Under the pieces are notes generated by a model, which saw only the letters and a program-made list of their open reading frames with translations, was not told where the DNA came from and searched no databases. Source: Bryobacterales bacterium (GTDB lineage: Bacteria > Acidobacteriota > Terriglobia > Bryobacterales > UBA6623). Taken from it: 64,000 nucleotides of DNA. How positions within the stretch are numbered: position 1 is the stretch's first letter; every line of letters begins with the position of its first letter. Shown piece by piece: positions 19,076-40,684 of the stretch. The position numbers and the translations under genes are program-made. Where the stretch lies: NCBI GenBank assembly GCA_022826925.1, contig JAJDTX010000070.1, forward strand, positions 1 through 64,000. The letters are read 5' to 3'.

Positions 19076-20023
19076 ATGCCCGCGCCCGCTGCAGTAGAAA
19101 TCTCGGAATGCACCTACAGCTACGGCGAGACTCGGGCGCTAGACGCTGTCAGCTTCCAAGTCGCGCCGCGGTCTATCTTCGGCCTGCTCGGGCCGAACGG
19201 CAGTGGCAAGACCACGCTGTTCCGCATCCTCTCCACCCTGCTCGCGCCCGAAAGCGGCAGCGCCAAGCTGTTCGGCGTCGATGTCACCGAGCGACCGATC
19301 GAGGCCCGGCGCCAAGTCGGCGTTGTCTTCCAGTCCCAGAGCTTGGACTCCCGGCTGACCGTCGAGGAAAACCTGGTGCACCAAGGCCACATGTATGGCC
19401 TGCGCGGGCACGACCTGGCCGAGCGCATCGGAGAAGTGCTGGAAAGGGTCGGCCTGGGGGACCGACGCAAGGACCGCGTGCAGACCCTGTCGGGCGGACT
19501 GCGCCGCCGGGCGGATCTGGCCAAGGGGCTGCTGCACGGCCCGAAGCTGTTGCTGCTCGACGAGCCGAGCACCGGAGTCGATCCCGTGGCCCGGCTGGCC
19601 TTCTGGCGCTACTTGGAGCAGTTGCGGTCTGCCGCCGGCGTCACGGTACTGCTGACCACGCATCTGCTGGAAGAGGCCGATGCTTGCGACGAGCTCGCGA
19701 TCCTGGATCGCGGCAAGTTGATCCGCCAGGGCACGCCCGCCGACCTCAAGGCCGAGATCGGCGGCGAAGTCGTCACGCTGGCTACCGGCGGCACAGCCGC
19801 TGTCGCGGCGGCGCTGGCCGAAGAATTCGCGGTTCAAGACGCCCGCGTCAACGGCGACGAGATTCGCTTCGAACACCCCGAGGGATCGAAATGGGCAGCC
19901 CGCCTGATGACTCGCTTCGGAACTCAGATCGAATCCGTGAAGATCTCGCGGCCCAGCCTCGAAGACGTCTTCCTGCACCACGCCGGGTACGGGTTCTACG
20001 CGGATAGCGACCAGCGGCGCTGA
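19076..20023 (+). CDS. ABC transporter ATP-binding protein (ABC-2 type), no permease nearby
   Basis: This 315-residue ATPase has Walker A GPNGSGKT at residues 39-46, the Q-loop VVFQSQ, a signature LSGGL (normally LSGGQ), Walker B LLLLDEPSTGVDP and the switch His in TTHLLEEAD. The C-terminal tail (about 220-315) matches the regulatory extension of drug-resistance and Nod-type ABC-2 exporters. Such ATPases nearly always have the permease gene next to them, but here the next gene is convergent and unrelated, so its partner is elsewhere or lost. The ATG at 19076 fits the family N-terminus; the long upstream open frame is antisense to the cupin gene. Confidence 0.88.
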   Translation: MPAPAAVEISECTYSYGETRALDAVSFQVAPRSIFGLLGPNGSGKTTLFRILSTLLAPESGSAKLFGVDVTERPIEARRQVGVVFQSQSLDSRLTVEENLVHQGHMYGLRGHDLAERIGEVLERVGLGDRRKDRVQTLSGGLRRRADLAKGLLHGPKLLLLDEPSTGVDPVARLAFWRYLEQLRSAAGVTVLLTTHLLEEADACDELAILDRGKLIRQGTPADLKAEIGGEVVTLATGGTAAVAAALAEEFAVQDARVNGDEIRFEHPEGSKWAARLMTRFGTQIESVKISRPSLEDVFLHHAGYGFYADSDQRR

Positions 20024-27576: not shown

Positions 27577-28791
27577 CTATGGCTTGCTCGCGATCCGCAC
27601 CAGCCGATTCCCCGTCCGAACCACAAACGACGCGTCCGCGGCCGCCACCCCGTAGACCCGACCCTCGGTGCTGAGCCGGTTCGTGGCCACGATCTCGCCA
27701 CTGGACTGGGACAGGACTGCGGCCGTTCCGTCGACACCGAAGAAGTAGAGGCGTTCTCCGTCCGTGATCCCGGTCGCCCAGCATCCGGACGGAAGCCGCT
27801 TCGTCGAGATCTGCTCTCCCGTGCGCAGGTCCAGTTCGAAGAGGACGCCGACAGAATTGACGAGCCACGCGCGCCCTCCGGCGATCAGGGGAGAGCTGAA
27901 CTCGGTCGTGGCCTTGTCAGCCGTCCAGAAGGTCGCGTTCGGGGTATCCAGTCGGAATGCGTGCGTCCCGCCAGCGTCACCCGCGCCAATCACGATCAGG
28001 CTCCCGGCCACGCTGGCCGACGGAACCGCATATCCGCGGCCGCCTCGGGCGGGACGCCGGAACACCTCCTCGCCGTTGTTCATGTCGTGCGCCGCCGCTC
28101 CGCCCCCGGCGGTTGTCAGTAACAGCGAGCGTCCCCCGTGCTCGATCATCACGGGCGTTGAGAAGGACGGGGCCGGAGGCAGCCCCCGCACCCAAACATC
28201 GCGGCCGTCTTCGGCGGCGATCGCGTATAGGCGCCCCTCTCCGAACGGAGCAACGTGCAGGAAGAGACGGTCCCCGGACAGCACGGGCGAGCCGCCGATG
28301 CCGTGGCGCCCGACCCAGTCATCGCCGCTCCGGGCCAGGTATCGAGCCCAGCGCTCCCTCCCAGTGTGGTCCAGCGCGACCAAGTCGCCACTTTCGAAGA
28401 ACGCATAGATGCCATCCTTGTCCGCAACGGGTGTGGGCGCGGCGTTCGACATGCGCTCGTGCGCGTCCGTGGGCGCAGAAGACGGCCTCCGGTCCATCCA
28501 CTCCAGTTCGCCGCCCGAGAGCCGGTATGCCGCGACCACCAAGGTCTCCTTGCGGCTGCCCACCGTGGAAGTGACGTACACCGTGCCGTCCCGGATGACC
28601 GGACTCGACTGTCCGTAGCCCTCGAGCCCGACAGACCAAGCCACGTTGGAGTCGTCAGACCAAGCCACGGGCAAGTCACGAGCCGAGGTGAGGCTCGATC
28701 CGTCTCCTCGAAATCCAGGCCAGCTGTCTCCGGCCAGCAGGCGGACGGCCATCAGGGCGGCGAGGGGAATTGCCTTTCGCATCGTCGGCAC
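27577..28791 (-). CDS. Exported PQQ-type beta-propeller protein (BamB-like fold)
   Basis: This protein of about 400 residues has a signal peptide, then repeated propeller blades with the PQQ-like pattern: SSPVIRDGTVYVTSTV, LVALDHTGRERW, SPVLSGDRLFLHV and SPLIAGGRAWLVNS. No quinone-dependent dehydrogenase residues are apparent, so it is more likely a BamB-like scaffold or binding protein in the periplasm. A GTG start at 28791 directly follows the stop codon of the TonB receptor; an ATG at 28782 is equally possible. Either way translation is coupled to the receptor, making it the last gene of the CobN/ExbB/TonB unit. Its role there may be binding or handing over the imported compound, which is inference. 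Confidence 0.8.
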   Translation of the reverse strand: MPTMRKAIPLAALMAVRLLAGDSWPGFRGDGSSLTSARDLPVAWSDDSNVAWSVGLEGYGQSSPVIRDGTVYVTSTVGSRKETLVVAAYRLSGGELEWMDRRPSSAPTDAHERMSNAAPTPVADKDGIYAFFESGDLVALDHTGRERWARYLARSGDDWVGRHGIGGSPVLSGDRLFLHVAPFGEGRLYAIAAEDGRDVWVRGLPPAPSFSTPVMIEHGGRSLLLTTAGGGAAAHDMNNGEEVFRRPARGGRGYAVPSASVAGSLIVIGAGDAGGTHAFRLDTPNATFWTADKATTEFSSPLIAGGRAWLVNSVGVLFELDLRTGEQISTKRLPSGCWATGITDGERLYFFGVDGTAAVLSQSSGEIVATNRLSTEGRVYGVAAADASFVVRTGNRLVRIASKP

Positions 28792-31680
28792 CTAGAAGGT
28801 CACTCGCAGCGAGAGCTGGAACTGGCGCGGCTCGTACGTCCTCACGGCCTGGCCGAACCGCCCGTCACCGAGGTTGTTGATCGGCTGGTGGTAGTTCACC
28901 CGGTTCAGGATGTTGAAGGCCTCCACCCGGAACCGGACGCTCATGGCTTCCCCAACCAGAACCTCCTTCTCCAACGTCACATGGAGGTCGAAGTAGGACG
29001 GGCCCAGTTCGGAATTGCGGGCCAGCGAGCCCACGGTGCCGGCTGCCGGCAGGATCTGGTCCGGCGTCGCGCCTTCGGCCAGCCGGAACTGCACGCTGCC
29101 CATGGACGAGCGATCAATCGTCCCCGCAACATCGTTGATCCGGTTGATCCGCGAGCCGTTCGGATTGTCCGTGTTCGACAGGAGCGAGAACGGGCTGCCG
29201 CTGCGCGCCCACAGGAGCGTGCCGACCTGCCAGCCTCCCAGCAGGCGGTTTCGCCGGGCGAACGGCAGTTCGTAGGTGCCGAAGGCAGTCAGGATATGCG
29301 GCTGGTGGAAATCGGCGAACGAGCGATCCACGTTCCAGTCGGACTGGTCGGTCGGCACGGCGTTGGAGCTCGAAGCCACGTCGATGGTCCGCGAGAAGGT
29401 GTAGGCCAAGCGGTACGCGAGGCCTCGCCCCAAGCGCGCCCGGATCGAAGCCTGCAGGGAGTCGTAATCCGAGTACGCGCCGCCGGTCAGGTAGCTCACC
29501 ACGCCGCGGCTGGGGTCGGGTCGAAACGGCGCGCGCAGGTTCGGCCCGCCGTTCGGCAGGGAGGTCCTGGCCAGCTTGAGCCCCCGGTTCCCGACGTAGG
29601 CAACACTCCCGACAGAACCGATGCCCCACAACTGGCGTTCGAGGGTGAGGTTCCAGTTCTGCACGTAAGGGTTGACCAACCCGCGGTCCAAGACGTATTC
29701 ATCGGAACCGACCCGGGCACCCTCTAGAGGGTCAGGCAACCTGGGCCGGAACCGGGAGTAGGTCGTGACACTTGGCGGCGCGAACCGCGACTGGGCGATG
29801 AAGCCCATCTGCAGGGGGCTGAAGAAAAACCCGTAGCCGCCGCGCAGGACTGTCTTGTCCTGCCCGCCGACGTTCCATGCGAAGCCGGCCCGAGGTGCGA
29901 TGTTGTTCGGATCGGAGCCGTAGTCCTGATCGAGCCGGCCGTACTTGTCGCCCGGAACGCCGTAGAACTCATAGCGGACGCCCAGATTGAGCGTCAGGCT
30001 GGGGGTGACCCGCCAGTCGTCCTGCGCATAGAGGCTGAATTCGTGGTTGCGCTGGTCGATGCGCGAGTCGCCGAATGCGCGGGAGTAGATCAGCGGCTGC
30101 CCGCCCAGGAACGCCCCGATCGAGGGGAAGATCATCAGCCCGTTGAAGTTGCGGTCGCTGATGGAGTTGTATTGGATGTGACGTCCGATCACTCCCGCTT
30201 TCAGCGAGTGCTTGCCGGTAACCAACGTGAAATCGTTGGAGTACGTGTAGTTGTGGAAGCGGGTCTGGGTCAGCGGAATGAACGTGCCCAAGCGGGGCAG
30301 GCCGGTCACCAGGATGACTCCCGCCTGTCCGTTGATTGCCGGATCACCCAGGGAGGGAGTGCCGGGGCTGACATGCGCGTAATAGGTCGAGTACGTCCCG
30401 CGGAACTGGTTAAACGCCCTCCGGGACAGGGACGACTCCAAGCTGACGACGGCGGAGCGGGAGAAGTTGTCGGTGCTCGCGTTGCCGGCGGGGAGGCGAG
30501 ACCGCGTCGGGCCGATCGCGTTGACCCAGTTGCCCCTGGCGCCGAGTCGGTGCCGGTCGCCGGGCTGCCAATCGAGCCGGAGCAGTCCTGTCTGGCTAGT
30601 CTGCGGACTCGGCACTGCCGCGCTGTGAAGGTTCGTTCCCGGAACGTTCGGCTCCGGGTAGTGTTGCAGCAGGGCGCGGACGCTCGGGGCAGCCCTCGCG
30701 CGCTGTTCGGCAGTCAGCGTCTGGACCGTCGACGAGGCGCGGTACTGGTTGCGCACACCAAGCTCGTATCCGCCGTAGAAGAACAGGGAGTTGCGGCGAA
30801 TCGGCCCGCCCAGCGTGACGCCGGGCATGTTGAGCCGCCGCTCCGGGCGCTGGGAGAGCAACGCCCCTCGTGCGTTCAGTTTCTCGTTCTGAAAGAAGTG
30901 ATAGGCGGATCCGTGCCACTCGTTCCCGCCACGCTTGGTGACGAGGTTGACGACCGCCCCGGAAGCCCGTCCGAACTCAGCCTTGAAGTTCGACGTCTGG
31001 ATCTCGAACGCCTCGACAGTCTCCATCGAGACAGGCTGCTCGGTCAGTCCTCGCCCGAGCAGGTTGCCGGCGACCGGATCGTTGTACTCGGCAGAATCGA
31101 CCATCGTGTTCACGGCGCCGAGCGGGCGGTTGCCGTTGACGGTGAACGGCGCGTGGCTCGACCGCGCGAAGCCGACGCCGGGAGTCTGGAAAGAGATGGC
31201 CCGATAGTTCCGGCCCACGTTGTTGGCCACCATCGGGATGCTGGCGACCTCCGGCGGCGCATAGCTGGAGCCGCGCACCCCGCTGGAGGCGACCCGCTCG
31301 ATTTCGGCGAAGGAGCCGACCACCGTGATTTCCTCGGAGACGGTGCCGAGTTCGAGGCGGATGTTGTGCACGACCTCCTGACCGGCGACCAATTGAATGC
31401 TCTCGGCTTGGTAGGCCCGGAAACCTTCCTTCTCAGATACCAGCCTGTAGGCGCCCGTGTCGAGGCCGGCCAGCCGATAGAGTCCGGCGCCAGAGCTGAG
31501 GGACTCCGTAACCGCTCCCGTCCGCAGAGATTCGAGCGCGACAGGCGCGTCGCCGACAGGCGCTCCCGACGGATCGAGAACCGTTCCAGTCAGCGTGGCA
31601 GATCCGACCTGAGCGCTTGACTGGCCAGTGCCGAACAGGCACAAGGAGATGAGGATTGCTGTGCGAATTATCGTCTTCAT
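28792..31680 (-). CDS. Oar-like TonB-dependent outer-membrane receptor in the CobN unit
   Basis: This 962-residue receptor has a signal peptide (about residues 1-24), a carboxypeptidase-regulatory domain (about 27-112, TATLTGTVLDPSGAPVGD), a plug domain (about 125-260, with SGAVVNLVTKRGGNEWHGSA) and a long 22-strand-type barrel ending in the outer-membrane Phe (LSLRVTF). This Oar/CarO-like architecture is the commonest receptor type in Acidobacteria. It would import a ligand using TonB energy; the ligand is not evident. Its start lies 46 bases after the CobN-like gene, with GAAAGGAAG before the ATG. A small hairpin (GCGGA/TCCGC, 31709-31722) sits in the gap. The context suggests a tetrapyrrole, metal-complex or corrinoid substrate. 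Confidence 0.92.
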   Translation of the reverse strand: MKTIIRTAILISLCLFGTGQSSAQVGSATLTGTVLDPSGAPVGDAPVALESLRTGAVTESLSSGAGLYRLAGLDTGAYRLVSEKEGFRAYQAESIQLVAGQEVVHNIRLELGTVSEEITVVGSFAEIERVASSGVRGSSYAPPEVASIPMVANNVGRNYRAISFQTPGVGFARSSHAPFTVNGNRPLGAVNTMVDSAEYNDPVAGNLLGRGLTEQPVSMETVEAFEIQTSNFKAEFGRASGAVVNLVTKRGGNEWHGSAYHFFQNEKLNARGALLSQRPERRLNMPGVTLGGPIRRNSLFFYGGYELGVRNQYRASSTVQTLTAEQRARAAPSVRALLQHYPEPNVPGTNLHSAAVPSPQTSQTGLLRLDWQPGDRHRLGARGNWVNAIGPTRSRLPAGNASTDNFSRSAVVSLESSLSRRAFNQFRGTYSTYYAHVSPGTPSLGDPAINGQAGVILVTGLPRLGTFIPLTQTRFHNYTYSNDFTLVTGKHSLKAGVIGRHIQYNSISDRNFNGLMIFPSIGAFLGGQPLIYSRAFGDSRIDQRNHEFSLYAQDDWRVTPSLTLNLGVRYEFYGVPGDKYGRLDQDYGSDPNNIAPRAGFAWNVGGQDKTVLRGGYGFFFSPLQMGFIAQSRFAPPSVTTYSRFRPRLPDPLEGARVGSDEYVLDRGLVNPYVQNWNLTLERQLWGIGSVGSVAYVGNRGLKLARTSLPNGGPNLRAPFRPDPSRGVVSYLTGGAYSDYDSLQASIRARLGRGLAYRLAYTFSRTIDVASSSNAVPTDQSDWNVDRSFADFHQPHILTAFGTYELPFARRNRLLGGWQVGTLLWARSGSPFSLLSNTDNPNGSRINRINDVAGTIDRSSMGSVQFRLAEGATPDQILPAAGTVGSLARNSELGPSYFDLHVTLEKEVLVGEAMSVRFRVEAFNILNRVNYHQPINNLGDGRFGQAVRTYEPRQFQLSLRVTF

Positions 31681-31726
31681 GGTTTCTTCCTTTCAATTGC
31701 TGTGCCACGCGGAGGGTTCCGCACGG

Positions 31727-34700
31727 CTAGGGCTGCTTGCGGAGTCTTAGGCCGATGAGAAGCGCTGTTCCCAAGACCGCCAACCCCAGCAGCAGCCAAC
31801 TGTCGAGACCGCTGCTGTCGGATTCGGGCGCGGAACTGTCCTCGCTGGTCCGAACGAGCCTGCGGCCTTGGACGATCTCGGCCCCCGCCAAGCCTGCGCT
31901 CCGGTCGACAGAGCTCTGGTAGGAGGTCAGGATCGTGGCGCCTTCGACATTGCCCGGCGCCGTCAGGGCTTGACCCAGAAATTCCTGGAACGCGGCATTG
32001 TCAACGGTCCGGGAGTCCCCGGCCGGTCCGTAGTCCGCGACCGAGAGCGCGTACCGATTCGCGACGCGGCGAAGGGTCTCCTCGTCAGCGTCCCAGTAGC
32101 CCTTGCGAGCGGCCTCGATCAGCACGGCGGTCACGTTCTGGAGCGCGTACGGGTTCTCCTGATCGAACCACTCGGGAATACCCAGCTCCAAGGAATCCTC
32201 CACGTAGACCCGCTCGACCTCGTCCCAGACGTAGTCGTCGATCGCCTCGGGCTTGGTCACCTGCCAGCCGAACAGGTTGGTGGCGGTTTGCGAGATCTCG
32301 ACCGCTCCGGAGAATCCCTCCTCCTGCTGCTCCCGGATCCAGCGCGGGTTCCAATACTTGCCGCGCAGGTCGCGGGTCAGCGTCTCCCGAACGGTCTCCA
32401 AGCGGCCGCGCTCGACGTCGCGCACGTCCGAGACATAGGTCTCCGGCGACGTCCCGGTTGTGTCGCGCACGGCCATGGTCATACCCCCGAGATACTCGAA
32501 ATAGTGATCCAGCGTCAGCGGGCTGATGACGTTGGTGGAGCGGCTTAGGGAGACGGCCTCGGTGCCGGCCAGGGCCTGCGCGTAGAGTCCCTCTACGTTC
32601 GCGCCCCACTCGGCGCCCTCTGTGTAAACCGCTCCGACCCGCGCCAGGTACTCCTCGGTCAGCCCCGCGGTGTCCTCGAAGTCGCCACTGCGGATGGTGT
32701 TGTCGATAACGCCCGTGCCGTAGCCCCCGACGTTGTTGCTGAAGACCCGAGCGCCGGCGTACAGCCGGGCGTCCTCGGCCGACATTCCGGCGCGCTTCAA
32801 TGCGATCTGCGACTCCTCGACGTGATCCGCGATGAAGTTATCGCCGTCGGCGGCTGCGGCAGCCAGCCGGACCGCCTTGTCCAGGAACTCCATGCGGTCC
32901 GGGAAGGTGTCCCGGAACAGGGAGGCCGCCTGGATGACCACGTCGATCCGGGGCCGGCCAAGTTCCTCGACTGGCACCAGATCCAAGTCGGCGACGATCC
33001 CGTTGTGGTCCCAGACCGGGCGCACGCCGATCAGGTGCAGGATCTGCGCCAAGTCCGTGCCGTAGTGCCGGATCAATTCGGTGTTCCAGAGCGTGAAGCC
33101 GATCTTCTTGGGGTAGCGCCCGAGCCGTTCCCGCTCGGCATCGAGGAGCGCATCCGCCAGCGACACCCCGACCTCCCACGCGGCCCGCGTGGGCACCTCC
33201 TGCGGGTTGATGCCGTACAGGTTGCGGGCAGTCGGAAGCGCCGCGGGGTTCCGGACCGGATCGCCGCCCGCGCCGGGAGGGATGTAGCCGCCCTCCAAGG
33301 CGTGCAGCGTCTGGGGGATCTCGCGAGAGGTGAGCCGCAGCGACGCGAAAATAGTCCTGACTCGGTCCTCGTCCGGACGCAACGCCGCAGCGACCCGTCG
33401 ACCTTCCAGGGCTGCCTCGACATGATGGACAGCTCTCTGCTTGGCAGCCTCCCAGCGCGTGCCACTCTCCACCTGCAGCCCCATCTCGTCGGAGGCCACG
33501 CGTCGGACGTAGTCGCTGCCGACCATCGATGTCACCAGCTGAGCCGCCTCGCTGGCAGGATTGTTCTGGGAATGAACATGCAACCCGAGCGGAATCCGGT
33601 CCTCGTTGATCAGGTGGATGTGGAGCTTCAGCTCGGCAACTTCCTCGTCCGTCGGCAGCCTCTCGGTCCAGTCGAGGCCCAGATCCTCGTCCAGCGCGCG
33701 GGCCTTGCCTAGCTTGGCGATCTGCTCGCGCAAGCGCTCCTTCAGGCTGCCCTCCTCCTGATCGACGAACTGCTCGGCCGCGCGGTACAGCTCGCCGATT
33801 TCGGGATCGGCCTCGGACAGCGAAGCCGCCCCGATGGGCGGGACTTGGTGGTCGACGGTCACGGCCGAGCCCCTGCGCTTGGCGATCAAGGCCTCGCCGA
33901 CGTTGTCCATGATGTAGACGTAAACGTTCGGCATGCGCCCGAGCGTGATGTCGGACCAGTCGTCGGCGAGCTGCCCGAGCGGGCGCCCAGGCAGGAACTC
34001 GTGCGTCCCGTGCGTGCCGTAGTTGACGATCGCGTCAGCTTCGAACTCGCGCTGCAACCACCAGTACGCAGCCAGGTACTGGTGGTTCGGAGGCACCCGG
34101 TCGTTGTGCTGGAGTCGGGCGTCCATGTTGGCGCCGCGGGCCGGCTGCGGCATCAGGATCACGTTGCCGAACTCGAGCTTGGGCAAGACGAGCTGCCGGC
34201 GGCCGTCTCGCTCGACCGTCATGAACTGGCCCGGGGGCGGGCCGAACGAGCCGACAACCTCCTCGCGCAAGGCCTCGGGCAGGGACGCGAACCAATCCAG
34301 ATAGTCCGCTTCGTCGATCAGGGAGACGCCTTCGAGGGAGGCCAGCTCCTCGAGCTCCCCGCGCTGGCTCTCGCTGATGTTGCGCCCCTTGTGCAGCATC
34401 TCGGCCAGCAGCGCGTCCGCGTCCGATACGAGGCCTTCCACGCCGTAGCCGGCCTCCTGCATGCCCCTGAGGAAGCGGATCAGGCTCCTGGGAACGTTCA
34501 GGCTGGCCGCAGTGATCTTGCCCTTCCCGATACCCGCGACATAGATGATTGCGACCTTCTTCTCGGAATTGGGCTTGGCCCGGAGCCGGACCCAGCGCAG
34601 GGCGCGGTCGGCCAGGCGGCCGATGCGCTCCCGCTCCACGGCTTCGAAGCGGCGGCCGGTCCATTCGGCACGCATCCCCTCGATCAGGGTCGGCTCGATC

Positions 34701-35671
34701 GCCCCGTCGATCTCGGGCACGATCGCTCCCATGGCGAGGCCGACCCCGCGGAGCCCGTTCTTGGTCTGGCGGTACTCCTCGAAGGTCTCGCCGGTAAACA
34801 TCAGCGACGCACCCCGCATTACCGGAATGTCGAACTCGGATTCGAGCAGCTCGACGCCGCGCGGGCCTTGGAACCAGCGGCCATGGCGCCGCGAGATCAC
34901 CAGGTCGGGCCGGAACTCCCGCACGAACTGCGGCGTCTTCTGGCCCCCGAAGATCGCGGCGACGTTCGCGCCTCGGGCTTCGAACGCCTCCAGCAAGGCA
35001 CCGGTTCCGGTCGTCATGCCGAGCCGCCAGCCATCGGCGAAGTCCAGCAGGATGCGGGGTCCCGACTCGCGGTGCCGTCCCGACTCGCGCATCCATTGGA
35101 CGTACTTCTCCGTCGACAGCATCAGGTCGGGAGCCTCGGGGTGGTAATAGCCGTCCTCCGGCGTGGGCTGAGGATCCTCGTAGGGCTCGCCGCTCCCGAG
35201 GTAGTGACTGGCCGCGTACCGGAACAGGTTGGCCATGTTGCGCGGCCCGCTGTGCTCCCAATACGCGCTGACCTGCTCGGCGTGGGCAGGGTTTCCGTGG
35301 CTGGCTAGGAGCCGGTTGTTCCGATCGGCTGGGACGAAAAACACCCCGGCACCTCGCGCAGCAGCTGCGGCCAAGCCGTCTTGGACAGGCCGCGTCAGCG
35401 GCTCCATGCGGCGACTCGAGATGAAGATCGCGTCGTAGCGGGAGAAGTCGGCCGTCTCAAGCTCCGGGTCGTCCATTTCTTCGCGCGACCAGAACCAAAA
35501 GCGGATGCCGGTAGCATCGGCGGCATCGGCTAGCAGGAACAGCTGCTGAGGGGGCACGCCGAGGAAAAGCATCTTCGGCATCAGCAGGTGGTAGGCAACG
35601 CCCCCTGCCAAGAACAGCGCGGCCGCCACGGCGGCGAGCCACTTCAAGAGTTTCCTGTGTCGAGGCGTCAT
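31727..35671 (-). CDS. cobN: CobN/BchH-type chelatase large subunit, membrane-anchored at both ends (HmuS-like)
   Basis: This 1314-residue protein matches the CobN/magnesium-chelatase H family over most of its length (about 190-1240), with family segments such as YGTHGTHEFLPGRP, HVHSQNNPASEAAQ and FSNNVGGYGTG. Classic CobN is cytoplasmic and works with the ATPases CobS and CobT to insert cobalt into a corrin. This one instead has an N-terminal anchor (about residues 9-31, preceded by RHRKLLK) and a C-terminal membrane helix (about 1287-1308, followed by RLRKQP), so the large domain should face the periplasm, away from ATP. No CobS/CobT is encoded nearby; the same operon has an ExbB-like channel and a TonB receptor. 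HmuS of Bacteroides, a CobN relative that releases iron from heme, is the closest precedent. I predict metal removal from, or processing of, an imported tetrapyrrole. The ATG overlaps the upstream stop (TGATG); GTG at 35674 is an alternative. Confidence 0.85.
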   Translation of the reverse strand: MTPRHRKLLKWLAAVAAALFLAGGVAYHLLMPKMLFLGVPPQQLFLLADAADATGIRFWFWSREEMDDPELETADFSRYDAIFISSRRMEPLTRPVQDGLAAAAARGAGVFFVPADRNNRLLASHGNPAHAEQVSAYWEHSGPRNMANLFRYAASHYLGSGEPYEDPQPTPEDGYYHPEAPDLMLSTEKYVQWMRESGRHRESGPRILLDFADGWRLGMTTGTGALLEAFEARGANVAAIFGGQKTPQFVREFRPDLVISRRHGRWFQGPRGVELLESEFDIPVMRGASLMFTGETFEEYRQTKNGLRGVGLAMGAIVPEIDGAIEPTLIEGMRAEWTGRRFEAVERERIGRLADRALRWVRLRAKPNSEKKVAIIYVAGIGKGKITAASLNVPRSLIRFLRGMQEAGYGVEGLVSDADALLAEMLHKGRNISESQRGELEELASLEGVSLIDEADYLDWFASLPEALREEVVGSFGPPPGQFMTVERDGRRQLVLPKLEFGNVILMPQPARGANMDARLQHNDRVPPNHQYLAAYWWLQREFEADAIVNYGTHGTHEFLPGRPLGQLADDWSDITLGRMPNVYVYIMDNVGEALIAKRRGSAVTVDHQVPPIGAASLSEADPEIGELYRAAEQFVDQEEGSLKERLREQIAKLGKARALDEDLGLDWTERLPTDEEVAELKLHIHLINEDRIPLGLHVHSQNNPASEAAQLVTSMVGSDYVRRVASDEMGLQVESGTRWEAAKQRAVHHVEAALEGRRVAAALRPDEDRVRTIFASLRLTSREIPQTLHALEGGYIPPGAGGDPVRNPAALPTARNLYGINPQEVPTRAAWEVGVSLADALLDAERERLGRYPKKIGFTLWNTELIRHYGTDLAQILHLIGVRPVWDHNGIVADLDLVPVEELGRPRIDVVIQAASLFRDTFPDRMEFLDKAVRLAAAAADGDNFIADHVEESQIALKRAGMSAEDARLYAGARVFSNNVGGYGTGVIDNTIRSGDFEDTAGLTEEYLARVGAVYTEGAEWGANVEGLYAQALAGTEAVSLSRSTNVISPLTLDHYFEYLGGMTMAVRDTTGTSPETYVSDVRDVERGRLETVRETLTRDLRGKYWNPRWIREQQEEGFSGAVEISQTATNLFGWQVTKPEAIDDYVWDEVERVYVEDSLELGIPEWFDQENPYALQNVTAVLIEAARKGYWDADEETLRRVANRYALSVADYGPAGDSRTVDNAAFQEFLGQALTAPGNVEGATILTSYQSSVDRSAGLAGAEIVQGRRLVRTSEDSSAPESDSSGLDSWLLLGLAVLGTALLIGLRLRKQP

Positions 35672-36069
35672 CACTCCCCCATCGCGGAGGGCACACCCTC
35701 CGGCACGTACACGACTTCCCCGCTCTCCAGCCGGTATGCCACGCCTAGGCGCGTGCCCCTTCCCGCCCCTCGCAGCTCGGAAGACTCGAGCTTCTCCATG
35801 CGCTCGCCGCGCTTGACGATCATTTCCATGTCCGGCTTTCCGGGATTCGTCACGATCGTGATGTCCTTCTGGCTCATTCGCGCCGCGATCTCGGCGAGGC
35901 TGTCCGCTCCAGCGAGAGCCAGCAGCAGGGCGACCACGAGGACCATCGACGCATCAAAGAGGTTGACCACGCCGACGAGCGGGTCGCCGGATCCGCCTGC
36001 GCCAGCGAGCGGATCAGCTGCCGAGTTCCAGTCCCGCAGCCGCGAGCGCTGCGGTCGATTGCTGTCCAT
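35671..36069 (-). CDS. DUF2149 protein with ExbD-like topology
   Basis: This 132-residue protein has a short charged N-terminus, one membrane helix (about residues 36-56) and an extracytoplasmic C-terminal domain. The C-terminal pattern NPGKPDMEMIVKRGE and GVAYRLESGEVVYVPEG fits DUF2149. The helix begins NLFDASMVLVVALLLAL, with Asp39 placed like the proton-carrying Asp of ExbD/TolR (FIDVMLVLL). Together with the neighbouring ExbB-like gene, which it overlaps by 56 bases, this suggests an ExbB/ExbD-type motor. Its stop codon overlaps the start of the CobN-like gene, so all three are made together. DUF2149 is otherwise uncharacterised; the ExbD comparison is mine. GGAG lies 7 bases before the ATG. 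Confidence 0.78.
   Translation of the reverse strand: MDSNRPQRSRLRDWNSAADPLAGAGGSGDPLVGVVNLFDASMVLVVALLLALAGADSLAEIAARMSQKDITIVTNPGKPDMEMIVKRGERMEKLESSELRGAGRGTRLGVAYRLESGEVVYVPEGVPSAMGE
35685..35702 (-). promoter_or_regulatory. Perfect hairpin just before the CobN start
   Basis: CGGAGGG and CCCTCCG form a 7-bp stem with a 4-base loop inside the last codons of the DUF2149 gene, ending about 14 bases before the CobN ATG. It includes a Shine-Dalgarno-like GGAGGG. It could tune translation of the much larger CobN-like protein relative to the motor subunits. Confidence 0.35.
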
Positions 36070-36655
36070 ACACTTGCTCCTCTTCTTCGCGCCAACGCTC
36101 GAGCAGGAACCGGATCTCGATCAAGTCCGCGCGTCCCCAGATCCTCGTGATGGTTCCAAGCCCGAACGCAACCCCTCCGATCACCAGGCCGATCACAGTC
36201 GTGGTGAATCCCAGCAGCAGGTTCGAGGCCATTTGCTGCATATTTCCCTCGGCAAGTCCCGCAAGAGCGGGTTGCAGGGGAATGAGCGTTCCGATCAAGC
36301 CCAGCATCGGGCCCGCCCGGGACACGATTGAGAGTTTTTCGATCCGGGCACGCAGGGCCGTCTCGATGTCGGTGACCTGCCTGTCGACGAAAACGCTTTG
36401 GAGTCCATGGGCTTCCAGCGCGCTCCGCACGGCCCCGAACCGGCCTCGCCACGACTGCAGCAGGAACCCGTTCAGGGACAATCCCTCCGCCCGGCACGCG
36501 GTCAGGCTCGCTCGATTGGCGCGCCGGTCGACAGCCTCGGAGAGCAACTGCCCGACGAGGTAAGTCATGCCAACGAATAGTGCGAGAACGGCAACCAGCG
36601 TGGGCACGAGGAACGCGCTGGAGAGGGAGTAGAGGATTCCCGACAGGACTTCCAT
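36014..36655 (-). CDS. MotA/TolQ/ExbB-type proton channel protein
   Basis: This 213-residue membrane protein has an N-terminal helix (about residues 8-38), a cytoplasmic middle part and two closely spaced helices (about 112-135 and 145-175). The last region, GPMLGLIGTLIPLQPAL and LGFTTTVIGLVIGG, carries the conserved Gly/Thr pattern of TolQ/ExbB/MotA channels. Such channels use the proton motive force to drive a partner that spans the periplasm. No standard ExbD or TolR is beside it; the overlapping DUF2149 gene probably fills that role. Sitting with a periplasmic CobN-like protein, it may power that enzyme or the TonB receptor downstream. Confidence 0.88.
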   Translation of the reverse strand: MEVLSGILYSLSSAFLVPTLVAVLALFVGMTYLVGQLLSEAVDRRANRASLTACRAEGLSLNGFLLQSWRGRFGAVRSALEAHGLQSVFVDRQVTDIETALRARIEKLSIVSRAGPMLGLIGTLIPLQPALAGLAEGNMQQMASNLLLGFTTTVIGLVIGGVAFGLGTITRIWGRADLIEIRFLLERWREEEEQVYGQQSTAALAAAGLELGS

Positions 36656-36676
36656 CGCTAGTTACGCCTAGGGGGA

Positions 36677-37336
36677 CTAGTAGGACCTTGTACGGCGGGC
36701 GACCAAGAACGAGAGACCAACCATCAACGCAACAATGCCAAGAACGGAGAGCGACTCGACCCAGTCGATGTGCTGGGCCAAGATTCGCGGGGTCTGTGAC
36801 TGGTGCGGAAGCAAGACCAGCAGCAGGGCGCTCATATTCGACACCGCGGCAAACCCCAGCGCGGCGCCGACGCTCGCGTCAAGTTTGGCCCGGCGGCGGG
36901 CTGCAAACGCAGCGGCAAGGACGACCCCGCCATAGACGGACATGACCGAAACTCCGGCCAAGAACCCCGGCAGGTTGGACCAGCGAAGGGCCTGCCAAGT
37001 AGCGGCACCTGCCGCGTAGAGCAGCAGCGGCGACGGGATCGCGAACAGCCACCCAGACCGCGATTGGGGACGGCTCGATCGCCTCGCTCGCTCGAACAGG
37101 ATCCACAAGAGGCCGTGTACGCCGATCGCGGCGGCCCACGCGGAGGGCTCGTTGACGAGCGCCCGCGCTTCGGCTTGCGACAATCTCTCGGTTAGGAGGC
37201 CGAGAACCGCGCCGGCAGCGAGCAATGACGTCGCATACGCCAAGCGCAAGCCGCGATTTCGAAACGCGGCCAGCCCTAGGGAATCTCTCGCGGCGAACAG
37301 TCCCAATGCAAGCAGAATTAGCAGCAACCAATCCAC
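36677..37336 (-). CDS. Seven-helix membrane protein, first gene of the CobN unit
   Basis: This 219-residue protein is almost entirely hydrophobic, with about seven predicted helices (near residues 2-17, 33-50, 67-85, 96-115, 123-146, 154-177 and 189-212). I cannot assign a family with certainty. Its place beside DUF2149, an ExbB-like channel and CobN matches the position taken by the predicted transporter family DUF2162 in some archaeal and bacterial CobN clusters, so an inner-membrane transport role is possible. It starts at GTG and is followed after 21 bases by the ExbB-like gene. No promoter was identified with confidence in the 213 bp upstream. Confidence 0.65.
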   Translation of the reverse strand: MDWLLLILLALGLFAARDSLGLAAFRNRGLRLAYATSLLAAGAVLGLLTERLSQAEARALVNEPSAWAAAIGVHGLLWILFERARRSSRPQSRSGWLFAIPSPLLLYAAGAATWQALRWSNLPGFLAGVSVMSVYGGVVLAAAFAARRRAKLDASVGAALGFAAVSNMSALLLVLLPHQSQTPRILAQHIDWVESLSVLGIVALMVGLSFLVARRTRSY

Positions 37337-38625: not shown

Positions 38626-39429
38626 CTAGCGGCCGTGGTAATCGGTCCTCTCGCCTCGGGGGCGGTTCTTGAACTCCCGGGCCAGCCGCACGAAAGCGTC
38701 AACCACGGCTTCGAAGATCGGACGGCCCTTCGCAGCCGAGGCGATCGTCGCATCCCCGTATGTGCCGGTCTTGCTGAATCGCGTCCATTCATCCATCACG
38801 TGCACGGGCGACCCGTCCATCAGGTCCATCCAGATGAACTCGGACTCGGGCATCCCGATCTCCTTGACCGCCTTTTCCATCTGCACCTTGTCCGGGGCCA
38901 GATGGAGATAGACCGACGTCTCGAGTTCCCCGGCGTGCGACATTCCGCCGCGCCCGGACTCCCGCTGCATGCGGATCTCCTCGCGGGCCAGGCCGGGCCA
39001 GATGAACGTTCCGCAAAGCGCGTCCGTCTCTAGGATCGTGCGCCGCGCGACGAGATCCAAGACGGGCATGTTCGACCCGTGCCCGTCGGCGATCAGAATC
39101 CGCCGGAAGCCGTGGTGCGCAACGCTCTTGGTCACGTCCAAGACGAAATGCAGGAGATGCTCCTGCTGGATGTCAATCGTGCCGGTGAAGTCCATGTGGT
39201 GCGTCTCGAATCCGTACGGGATCAACGGCAGCAGCAGGATGTCGCCATCCGCTCGTTTCGCCGCCTCCTCGCAAATGCTCCAAATCAGGAAGTTGTCCGT
39301 GTCGAGAGGCAAGTGGTGTCCGTGGTCCTCCACGGAACCGATCGGCAGCACGATGACAGGTTGCTCGCCGACCCTGCCGCCGAGTTCCTGCCACGTGTGG
39401 TGGTGGTAGAGATACGAGATCTTGGGCAT
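38626..39429 (-). CDS. Creatininase-family amidohydrolase
   Basis: This 267-residue enzyme belongs to the creatininase family, which opens cyclic or linear amides with two metal ions. The metal residues fall at the same numbers as in Pseudomonas creatininase: E34, H36 and D45 in GSVEDHGHHLPLDTD. The segments ADGHGSN and SHAGELETS supply the later His and Glu ligands. Relatives act on creatinine, pterin precursors (ArfB) or mycofactocin peptides (MftE); the substrate here is unknown. It lies 4 bp downstream of an MFS transporter gene on the same strand, suggesting uptake and hydrolysis of one compound. Confidence 0.87.
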   Translation of the reverse strand: MPKISYLYHHHTWQELGGRVGEQPVIVLPIGSVEDHGHHLPLDTDNFLIWSICEEAAKRADGDILLLPLIPYGFETHHMDFTGTIDIQQEHLLHFVLDVTKSVAHHGFRRILIADGHGSNMPVLDLVARRTILETDALCGTFIWPGLAREEIRMQRESGRGGMSHAGELETSVYLHLAPDKVQMEKAVKEIGMPESEFIWMDLMDGSPVHVMDEWTRFSKTGTYGDATIASAAKGRPIFEAVVDAFVRLAREFKNRPRGERTDYHGR

Positions 39430-39433
39430 CGAT

Positions 39434-40684
39434 TCAGTCTTGGACGCGCCGTTCCGGATCGATCAAGAACCACAACACCGCCCCCATACCATACACAACG
39501 GTCGCGGCCCAGAACATTGACTCGAACGAGCCGAACCGCGAAGCGAGCCACGCGGCGGAAATCGGCGAGATGACTGCGGACGCGCTCGATGCCGTGTTCA
39601 TGAATCCGGTTGCCGTCCCGCCATAGCGGTGGCCGACATCCACGCAAACCGCCCATGCCACGGGCAGCGTGAGGTCCTGCGCCCCTTGCGCGAAGGCCAT
39701 CCACAACACCGCCGCCAAAGGCTCTCCGGCGACCGCCGCCATGGCGAAGCCCACCGCGGCCAACGCGAACCCCCCGATCCCGACCGCCCTGCGCCCCCAG
39801 CGCAGGCCCGCCCGCCGGACCAGCCAGTCGGAGAAGGTGCCGCCGGCCACGCAGGCAGCCGCGCCCACCAGCAACGGGATCGCCGAGTAGAGGCCGGAGC
39901 GCTCCAGAGTCAGGCCGTGCTCGTCCATGAGGTACGTCGGGAGCCAGGTGACGAAGAAATAGAACCCGTATGCGGAGCAGAAGTACATGCCGAACAGGGC
40001 CCAGAGGTTGCCGTCGGCGAGCATGCGCCGCCACGGGACCACCGAAGCCTCGGCCGGCGGAATGCCCTCCGAGCGGATGTACGCCAGTTCAGACTCCCCG
40101 ACTTCTGGATGATCGGCCGGATCGTCCGTGTACCATCGCCAGAACAGCCAACACCAGAACAACCCGATGGTCCCGAGCACCGCAAAGGTGGGGCGCCATC
40201 CGATCAGGGCAATTAGAAGCGCCGCGATGGGAGGAGCCGCAGACCCACCCAGGCGGGCTCCCATCCACATCAGACCGGTGGTGCGGCCTCGCTCGCTGGC
40301 CGGGAACCACCGGGCGAGGGCCCGGGTCAGGGTCGGAAAGGCGCCGGCCTGTGCGGCGCCAAACAAGAAGCGAATTCCGGCCAGCGTTGCAAATCCCCGC
40401 ACTGCCCCGGTCAGGATTGTGAGCAGCGACCATGCGGCAACGATCGGGGCCATCAGCCGCTTTTGGCCGAAGCGGTCGCCGATCCATCCCGTTGGAATCT
40501 CGAACAGACCGTAGGCTAGGGCGAATGCGCTGAAGACATAGCCCATGCGGACGCTGCTCAGCCCAAGGTCCTCGACCATGAACGGCGCGGCAACGGAAAT
40601 GCAGACCCGGTCGAGGTAGGTGACGAACGCCACCGTGACCGCGAATACCAAAGTGAGGTTGCGGGCGTTGGTGTCGGTCCTCAC
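39434..40684 (-). CDS. MFS transporter (anion:cation symporter type)
   Basis: This 416-residue protein has 12 predicted membrane helices with the MFS loop motif GWIGDRFGQKR between helices 2 and 3 and RFLFGAAQAGAFPTLTRALARWFP, which is typical of the ACS subfamily that moves sugar acids, phthalate-like acids and similar organic anions with protons. A second loop (about residues 190-215) is cytoplasmic. The start is GTG with an extended -10 twelve bases upstream. The creatininase-family gene follows after 4 bp, so the two are one operon and the cargo may be the amide or acid that enzyme uses. Confidence 0.88.
   Translation of the reverse strand: MRTDTNARNLTLVFAVTVAFVTYLDRVCISVAAPFMVEDLGLSSVRMGYVFSAFALAYGLFEIPTGWIGDRFGQKRLMAPIVAAWSLLTILTGAVRGFATLAGIRFLFGAAQAGAFPTLTRALARWFPASERGRTTGLMWMGARLGGSAAPPIAALLIALIGWRPTFAVLGTIGLFWCWLFWRWYTDDPADHPEVGESELAYIRSEGIPPAEASVVPWRRMLADGNLWALFGMYFCSAYGFYFFVTWLPTYLMDEHGLTLERSGLYSAIPLLVGAAACVAGGTFSDWLVRRAGLRWGRRAVGIGGFALAAVGFAMAAVAGEPLAAVLWMAFAQGAQDLTLPVAWAVCVDVGHRYGGTATGFMNTASSASAVISPISAAWLASRFGSFESMFWAATVVYGMGAVLWFLIDPERRVQD

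Follow-up and report, generated by a model that had tools for sequence, protein, structure and literature searches.

The window analysed here, a 64,000-nucleotide stretch of a Bryobacterales genome (Acidobacteriota; assembly GCA_022826925.1, contig JAJDTX010000070.1, positions 1 to 64,000), contains on its minus strand an operon of six open reading frames (ORFs; 27577..37336) in which a CobN-family protein related to the heme dechelatase HmuS is encoded together with a putative proton motor and a TonB-dependent receptor. In the published hmuYRSTUV operon, HmuS is accompanied by HmuU, a MotA-type protein, and HmuV, a DUF2149 protein (PMC10434189, PMC12583661, PMC10100974). The preferred reading, to which a probability of roughly 0.55 is given, is that the window operon encodes an Hmu-like system for the uptake and demetallation of metallo-tetrapyrroles in Acidobacteriota, mainly Bryobacterales, in which the motor acts on the chelatase. 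This reading builds on the observed gene content, sequence motifs, place in the tree, conservation of gene order and match in copy number between motor and chelatase, and on a topology obtained by hydropathy only. Dechelation, the direction of the reaction, the target of the motor and the nature of the substrate would be as proposed below from these sequence features.

The six closely packed minus-strand genes lie exactly where the initial annotation had placed them and are supported by Pfam. In the order of transcription they encode a multi-pass membrane protein, a MotA/ExbB-type protein, a DUF2149 protein, a CobN-family protein of 1315 amino acids (aa), an Oar-type TonB receptor and a PQQ_2 propeller (see the table). 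By ORF coordinates, 21 bp separate the genes of the membrane protein and the MotA-like protein, the latter overlaps the DUF2149 gene by 56 bp, the DUF2149 and CobN-like genes overlap by 4 bp, a gap of 46 bp precedes the receptor gene, and the propeller gene follows at 0 bp. The CobN-like protein matches PF02514 over residues 137-1201 (E = 1.3e-296), the DUF2149 protein matches PF09919 (1.7e-27) and the MotA-like protein PF01618 (MotA_ExbB, 1.2e-8), in agreement with the ExbB-type motor recognised in the initial annotation. The receptor combines OMP_b-brl_4 and CarboxypepD_reg domains, which makes it Oar-type, and the propeller matches PQQ_2. A full-length DUF2162 match of the membrane protein (24.1 bits) falls below the curated cut-off of 34.4, and 6 of 14 aligned members match DUF2162. 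By hydropathy, the DUF2149 protein has one helix, the MotA-like protein three and the membrane protein five that are clear at the threshold used, instead of the seven first ascribed to it. A PHROGs search with three proteins of the operon gave zero matches.

Features of the window operon and a gene block beside two related clusters
Feature	Position	Strand	Basis or remark
Multi-pass membrane protein, DUF2162-like, HmuT position	36677..37336	-	Pfam, hydropathy, fused ORFs in relatives
MotA/TolQ/ExbB-type channel subunit, HmuU counterpart	36014..36655	-	PF01618, conserved Thr
DUF2149 protein, HmuV counterpart, one helix with membrane Asp (ExbD-like)	35671..36069	-	PF09919, hydropathy
Membrane-anchored class I chelatase-like protein, HmuS branch (annotated CobN), body predicted periplasmic	31727..35674	-	PF02514, motifs, tree, hydropathy
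Oar-type TonB-dependent outer-membrane receptor, 962 aa	28792..31680	-	Pfam, orthologues in relatives
PQQ_2-type beta-propeller, N-terminal signal-like stretch (by eye)	27577..28791	-	Pfam
CbiM-CbiQ-CbiO-ferredoxin-CobW-WD40 block	L084 821-6053; L091 154-5395		adjoins chelatase operon

The chelatase-like protein is predicted by hydropathy to have one helix at each end, both with lysine or arginine on the outer flank, and because of these basic flanks its body should face the periplasm, the orientation proposed at the outset. At the same threshold both helices were detected in 6 of 14 proteins of its clade (at least one in 13 of 14) and in 3 of 4 proteins of the HmuS branch. The relationship to HmuS that had been suggested is upheld by several lines of evidence. 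The best match among solved structures is the HmuS heme dechelatase (610 bits), followed by a CobN (428 bits), and the alignment to HmuS extends through the C-terminal helix. In an alignment of 50 proteins (14 clade members, 3 paralogues, 4 HmuS-branch proteins and 29 others), with residue roles taken from HmuS (PMC12583661), the superfamily histidine (HmuS 538) is present in all 50. The HmuS-type His1209/Glu1212 pair (LDHxxE) occurs in 14/14, 3/3 and 4/4 of the first three groups and in 2/29 of the others, and the HGR motif, which contains the heme ligand His254 of HmuS, in all 21 proteins of those three groups and in none of the 29 others. In a quick maximum-likelihood tree, clade and paralogues group together with an approximate likelihood-ratio support (SH-aLRT) of 100. 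Clade, paralogues, the HmuS branch and one further sequence group with a support of 99, apart from a seven-member branch of B12 CobN proteins and from other motor-linked CobN-like proteins; this tree was computed without bootstrap, includes 22 sequences of unusual composition and leaves the B12 CobN of Marinobacter on a long branch of its own. The clade is a sister clade of HmuS and, in the contig scan described below, appears in Acidobacteriota alone, mostly under Bryobacterales names.

That the protein is an ordinary cobaltochelatase CobN of B12 synthesis, misplaced beside transport genes, is what its automatic family name and its PF02514 match would suggest. This is very improbable and was rejected. 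The protein scores below the cut-offs of all nine NCBIfam models of CobN/BchH type listed (best 833.5 bits, against a CobN equivalog cut-off of 1248), and it stands outside the seven-member CobN branch. The eight B12 CobN proteins of the alignment carry Asp where the HmuS type has His (8/8) and have end helices in 0/8, bar one N-terminal helix in Marinobacter. No CobS/CobT pair is encoded in the operon, as had been noted, and the best genome-wide match to ChlID (TIGR02442) reaches 42.1 bits, against a cut-off of 779.45, in a genome that is 93% complete; this genome-wide search covered ChlID and not the CobS/CobT models.

The arrangement of the cluster is conserved well beyond the window. Contigs were scanned for the chelatase-like protein with a sensitivity set by two peptide patterns, which yielded 120 relatives; the best 80 among them were retained. 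Thirty of these 80 (L069-L098) are acidobacterial and 43-97% identical, comprising 22 clade loci and 8 stand-alone paralogue copies; by NCBI lineage 18 belong to Bryobacterales, one to Terriglobales (L094) and 11 have no order name. The next match among the best 80, from Rhodocyclales, is 36% identical. With the window and L042 added there are 24 clade loci, two of which (L093 and L096) come from a single metagenome-assembled genome. A MotA-type gene is present in 24/24 and a DUF2149 gene in 22/24, the two loci lacking it (L094, L095) being cut by the contig end. An Oar-type receptor gene lies directly downstream of the chelatase gene in 21 of the 24, that is, in 21/21 of those whose contig reaches that far; in L081, L093 and L094 the contig stops within the chelatase gene or shortly behind it. 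The expectation that receptor and motor would be conserved with the chelatase is thus borne out in the clade. The membrane protein was found by tblastn in 23/24 loci; L089, the remaining one, has it as an ORF. In 9/24 it forms a single ORF with the MotA-type protein; the fused ORF is matched directly by the window protein in L081, L092, L094 and L095 and is linked through relatives in the other five, of which L085 and L098 matched queries taken from themselves. Outside the window group the receptors of the operon are 48-64% identical, and other Oar-type matches in the same loci reach 26-31%, except for a 60-residue fragment in L071 at 58%. Because its identity so far exceeds that of these other matches, the receptor looks like the dedicated receptor of the cluster. 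The eight paralogue loci gave zero matches to the motor, the membrane protein, the receptor or the propeller. Recurring in 23 further loci, the cluster is more than a chance arrangement.

An additional layer of evidence concerns the motor pair and its target. Thr123 of the MotA-like protein, in an ExbB-like G-x-T/G-T motif, is found in 46/46 non-identical sequences and is shared with three ExbB proteins, and Asp39 of the DUF2149 protein, at the start of its helix, is found in 49/50 sequences (near-copies included), the remaining one having Glu. The window genome contains exactly two PF02514 matches, that of the window and a 57%-identical paralogue on contig C193 (L033, 4992-8897), and exactly two DUF2149 matches, that of the window and one on contig C33 that lies behind its own MotA-type gene (53%; L160, 9762-10728). 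Within 20 kb of the paralogue no motor, membrane protein or receptor was matched, and within 20 kb of the second motor pair no chelatase or receptor. By eye, the paralogue adjoins a miaB-like gene and the second pair an RpiB-like gene. Among 61 related genomes, the number of DUF2149 genes equals the number of clade or paralogue chelatases in 16/16 genomes that have any, in counts entered by hand with clade assignment by identity and motifs not checked for each copy (the copies in G001 and one in G056 are partial). The informative genomes are the nine with a stand-alone paralogue (G000, G004-G010 and G014), in which the extra MotA/DUF2149 locus is found on a different contig or at a distance of 55-57 kb (G008, G006) or about 2 Mb (G014). 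When copy numbers were shuffled over genomes, the observed 56/61 agreements were never reached in 100,000 tries, a figure that is not a probability since the genomes are related. Four of the five other genomes with DUF2149 (G019, G026, G046 and G058) have another kind of CobN-like protein, each with DUF2149 beside it.

In the proposed mechanism, the Oar-type receptor would import the ligand into the periplasm by means of the ordinary TonB/ExbB/ExbD proteins of the genome. The HmuS-like protein, anchored by its terminal helices, would bind the ligand and strip its metal in a cleft with the histidine-histidine-glutamate set of HmuS. The MotA-like and DUF2149 proteins would form an ExbB/ExbD-like proton motor acting on the chelatase and the membrane protein, in the role that the ATP-driven CobS/CobT or ChlI/ChlD play for class I chelatases of the cytoplasm. 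After demetallation, the metal or the tetrapyrrole would cross the inner membrane via the membrane protein or FeoB. That the motor serves the chelatase is suggested because its copy number tracks the chelatase even where enzyme and motor are unlinked. The separate ExbD genes of the genome, the conserved Asp and Thr and a two-motor cluster in Trichlorobacter described below point the same way. Methanosarcina acetivorans, which has no outer membrane, gave matches for both DUF2149 and PF02514. HmuS and HmuV clusters have been reported in Methanomicrobia (PMC10100974), and an inner-membrane fraction of P. gingivalis stimulates HmuS (PMC13227078). More broadly, MotA/DUF2149 may be a dedicated engine that runs on the proton-motive force and takes the place of the AAA+ ATPase for class I chelatases in the periplasm, both in the window operon and across Hmu systems, instead of energising a TonB receptor; this generalisation is tentative.

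Several observations weigh against a motor that acts on the chelatase. In genomes with the operon only, the copy-number match is a consequence of linkage, and the counts are not independent of one another because the genomes share ancestry. G002 encodes DUF2149 but no chelatase, and the tally leaves out a DUF2149 match in G018 that fell below the threshold. In two archaeal controls PF02514 is present and DUF2149 absent. Seven of the 61 relatives have only CobN-family proteins from outside the clade and no DUF2149, and all seven B-type proteins tested from these relatives carry a membrane helix at one end or at both, so the motor is not needed by every anchored relative. HmuV has been called an ExbD homologue and HmuU/V are described as ExbB/ExbD-like (PMC10100974). 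Alignment of DUF2149 with ExbD by hhalign, which places Asp on Asp, has a probability of 2.7%, and homology was not significant by profile comparison or against solved structures. The published Hmu model provides the rival explanation, in which the TonB receptor is what the MotA-like/DUF2149 pair powers, and heme is demetallated by an HmuS-like enzyme that uses a reductant and receives no mechanical help. HmuU/V of B. theta is stated to power HmuR, and gene groups in which S was not detected have been counted as R-T-U-V in 981 species and T-U-V in 337 species (PMC10100974); purified HmuS turns over with NADH and no HmuTUV (PMC12583661), and in the window too receptor and motor share one operon. 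However, the window genome gave three ordinary ExbD matches that adjoin ExbB-like ORFs, one of them also next to a TonB-like ORF (ExbB and TonB by eye). Its stand-alone chelatase and second motor pair have no receptor match within 20 kb, and motor copy number follows the chelatase. A receptor-energising role is considered rather unlikely. In most of the seven relatives without DUF2149, the CobN-family proteins are encoded beside a protein of 709-754 aa. Another acidobacterial group of CobN-like proteins with a membrane helix (L048, L050, L059, L061, L062 and L065) carries Asp/Glu for the HmuS-type His in genomes without DUF2149; each is encoded beside such a protein of 709-754 aa, and that of L048, the sole one tested, is a TonB receptor by Pfam.

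As to the substrate, heme and cobalt or nickel tetrapyrroles are nearly even. Heme, in an iron-from-heme pathway as in Bacteroidota, is a realistic candidate that falls somewhat short of an even chance. It is favoured by the HGR and LDHxxE motifs held in common with HmuS and by two strong FeoB_N matches in the window genome. The heme pocket, however, is altered. The axial ligand Met79 is absent from 14/14 clade proteins, although an arginine at this position is also found in the hmu operon of Aureibacter, which has HmuY. The predicted propionate contacts Ser1014, Ser1067, Gln1198 and Trp1202 of HmuS are replaced by Asn, Ala, Ser and Ile in the window protein, and Ser1014, Ser1067 and Trp1202 differ in 14/14 clade proteins, both serines being also missing from G265a of the HmuS branch. 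Other points against heme are the lack of HmuY in the operon, two ferrochelatase matches that suggest heme synthesis by the organism itself, the Co/Ni-type genes beside relatives and the lack of a clear Fur-like site. A simple consensus score over 13 regions upstream of the first gene, without a control set, gave weak partial matches to Fur/Zur-like sites only (best 8/14 and 7/12 positions).

The other candidates, proposed a little more tentatively, are tetrapyrroles of cobalt or nickel (corrinoid, F430-like or similar) and further chelates of these metals. In 2/24 loci (L084 and L091) a CbiM-CbiQ-CbiO-ferredoxin-CobW block stands beside the cluster. Pfam names the CbiM of L091 and both CobW; the other genes were assigned by eye and from tblastn comparison of one locus with the other. 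A DUF4198-type gene adjoins DUF2149 in 5/5 subtype-2 loci whose sequence extends that far. Its match exceeds the cut-off in L086 and narrowly misses it in L098, and in the others it was recognised by similarity; DUF4198 proteins go with cobalt/nickel uptake. Distant relatives of the module lie near nikR (Azospirillum), among B12 genes (Trichlorobacter) and in hydrogenase-maturation genes (Runella), although those of Trichlorobacter and Runella lack the HmuS motifs and that of Azospirillum has the His/Glu pair without HGR. Against this substrate, neither the window nor any of 14 related loci contains an Rfam riboswitch that passes the gathering threshold, and the only such match near the window operon is a 33% ABC-ATPase (19094-19753). 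The Runella cluster, on a plasmid (L156, 5158-13192), consists of a TonB receptor, a permease-like 'urease accessory protein', MotA, DUF2149 and a CobN-like protein surrounded by hyp genes of hydrogenase maturation, which suggests that the module has a variant for nickel.

Among the closest known systems is hmuYRSTUV of Bacteroidota, with a doubly anchored CobN-like protein, a MotA-type protein, DUF2149, a multi-pass membrane protein and a TonB receptor in one operon and with HGR and LDHxxE. The pairing with DUF2149, first taken to be undescribed, is therefore that of HmuS, HmuU and HmuV. The hmu operon was reported as ~99% Bacteroidetes among 4,490 genomes (PMC10100974). The window operon differs in lacking an ORF for HmuY (the operon, not the genome, was searched), in its Oar-type receptor of 962 aa versus the HmuR-type of 753 aa (B. 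finegoldii), in its gene order T-U-V-S-R, in its altered pocket residues and in the absence of the Met-rich insertion: the corresponding stretch has 61 residues with 2 Met, versus 230 residues with 31 Met in Prevotella. At this site, long but Met-poor insertions occur in Aureibacter and G265a. The membrane protein has the position and type of HmuT, although homology was not detected (hhalign probability 0.2%). DUF2149 is also combined with a CobN-like protein in PA1922-PA1925 of the Pseudomonas aeruginosa Zur regulon, which includes a TonB receptor and a channel protein named ExbD (PMC9431628); likened by description, not by sequence, these are the same kinds of genes as in the window but zinc-regulated. 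A B12-plasmid cluster of Trichlorobacter lovleyi (L153) likewise unites a TonB receptor, DUF2162, MotA, DUF2149 and CobN. It differs in standing among B12 genes, in a CobN-like protein without HGR and the His/Glu pair, and in having its own ExbB/ExbD/TonB besides the MotA/DUF2149 motor; its CobN has been noted as lacking CobS/CobT (PMC3403914). With CobNST and ChlHID the window protein has the large-subunit family in common, these class I chelatases being cytoplasmic, with ATP-driven partners, and inserting metal (PMC12583661).

No acidobacterial Hmu-like system or motor-driven chelatase was found among the papers matched, as judged by title and start of the abstract and with thin coverage of subscription papers. 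What would be new is an acidobacterial sister clade of HmuS with an Oar-type receptor, no HmuY in the operon, an altered pocket and no Met-rich insertion. In this lineage, proteins given the automatic name CobN probably release metal in the periplasm and are not B12 enzymes. The recent HmuS papers leave open how such a chelatase works in the periplasm without ATP, and the electron donor is uncertain (PMC13227078). The acidobacterial genomes studied here keep enzyme, motor and receptor genetically apart, a second enzyme and a second motor being unlinked and without an adjoining receptor, whereas the hmu operons compared do not, and this separation makes it testable whether the motor powers the enzyme.

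The PQQ propeller, which the initial annotation had counted as part of the set, is not conserved with the rest. Among the 24 clade loci it occupies this place only in the genus of the window and in one genome of a sister genus, and as a core part it was rejected for being lineage-specific at this position. The window genome has 77 PQQ_2 matches, and the propeller is best described as a lineage-specific neighbour, possibly co-transcribed. L095 has a gene for a 26%-identical propeller upstream of its cluster. In a different lineage of Acidobacteriota (L164, 2-10182), an HmuS-branch protein of 1601 aa occurs with a TonB receptor, MotA and DUF2149, and a Kelch and PQQ propeller protein is encoded between chelatase and motor. 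Upstream of the window operon (38626-40684) lie genes for a major facilitator superfamily (MFS) transporter and a creatininase-family protein, which co-occur in several genomes of the genus.

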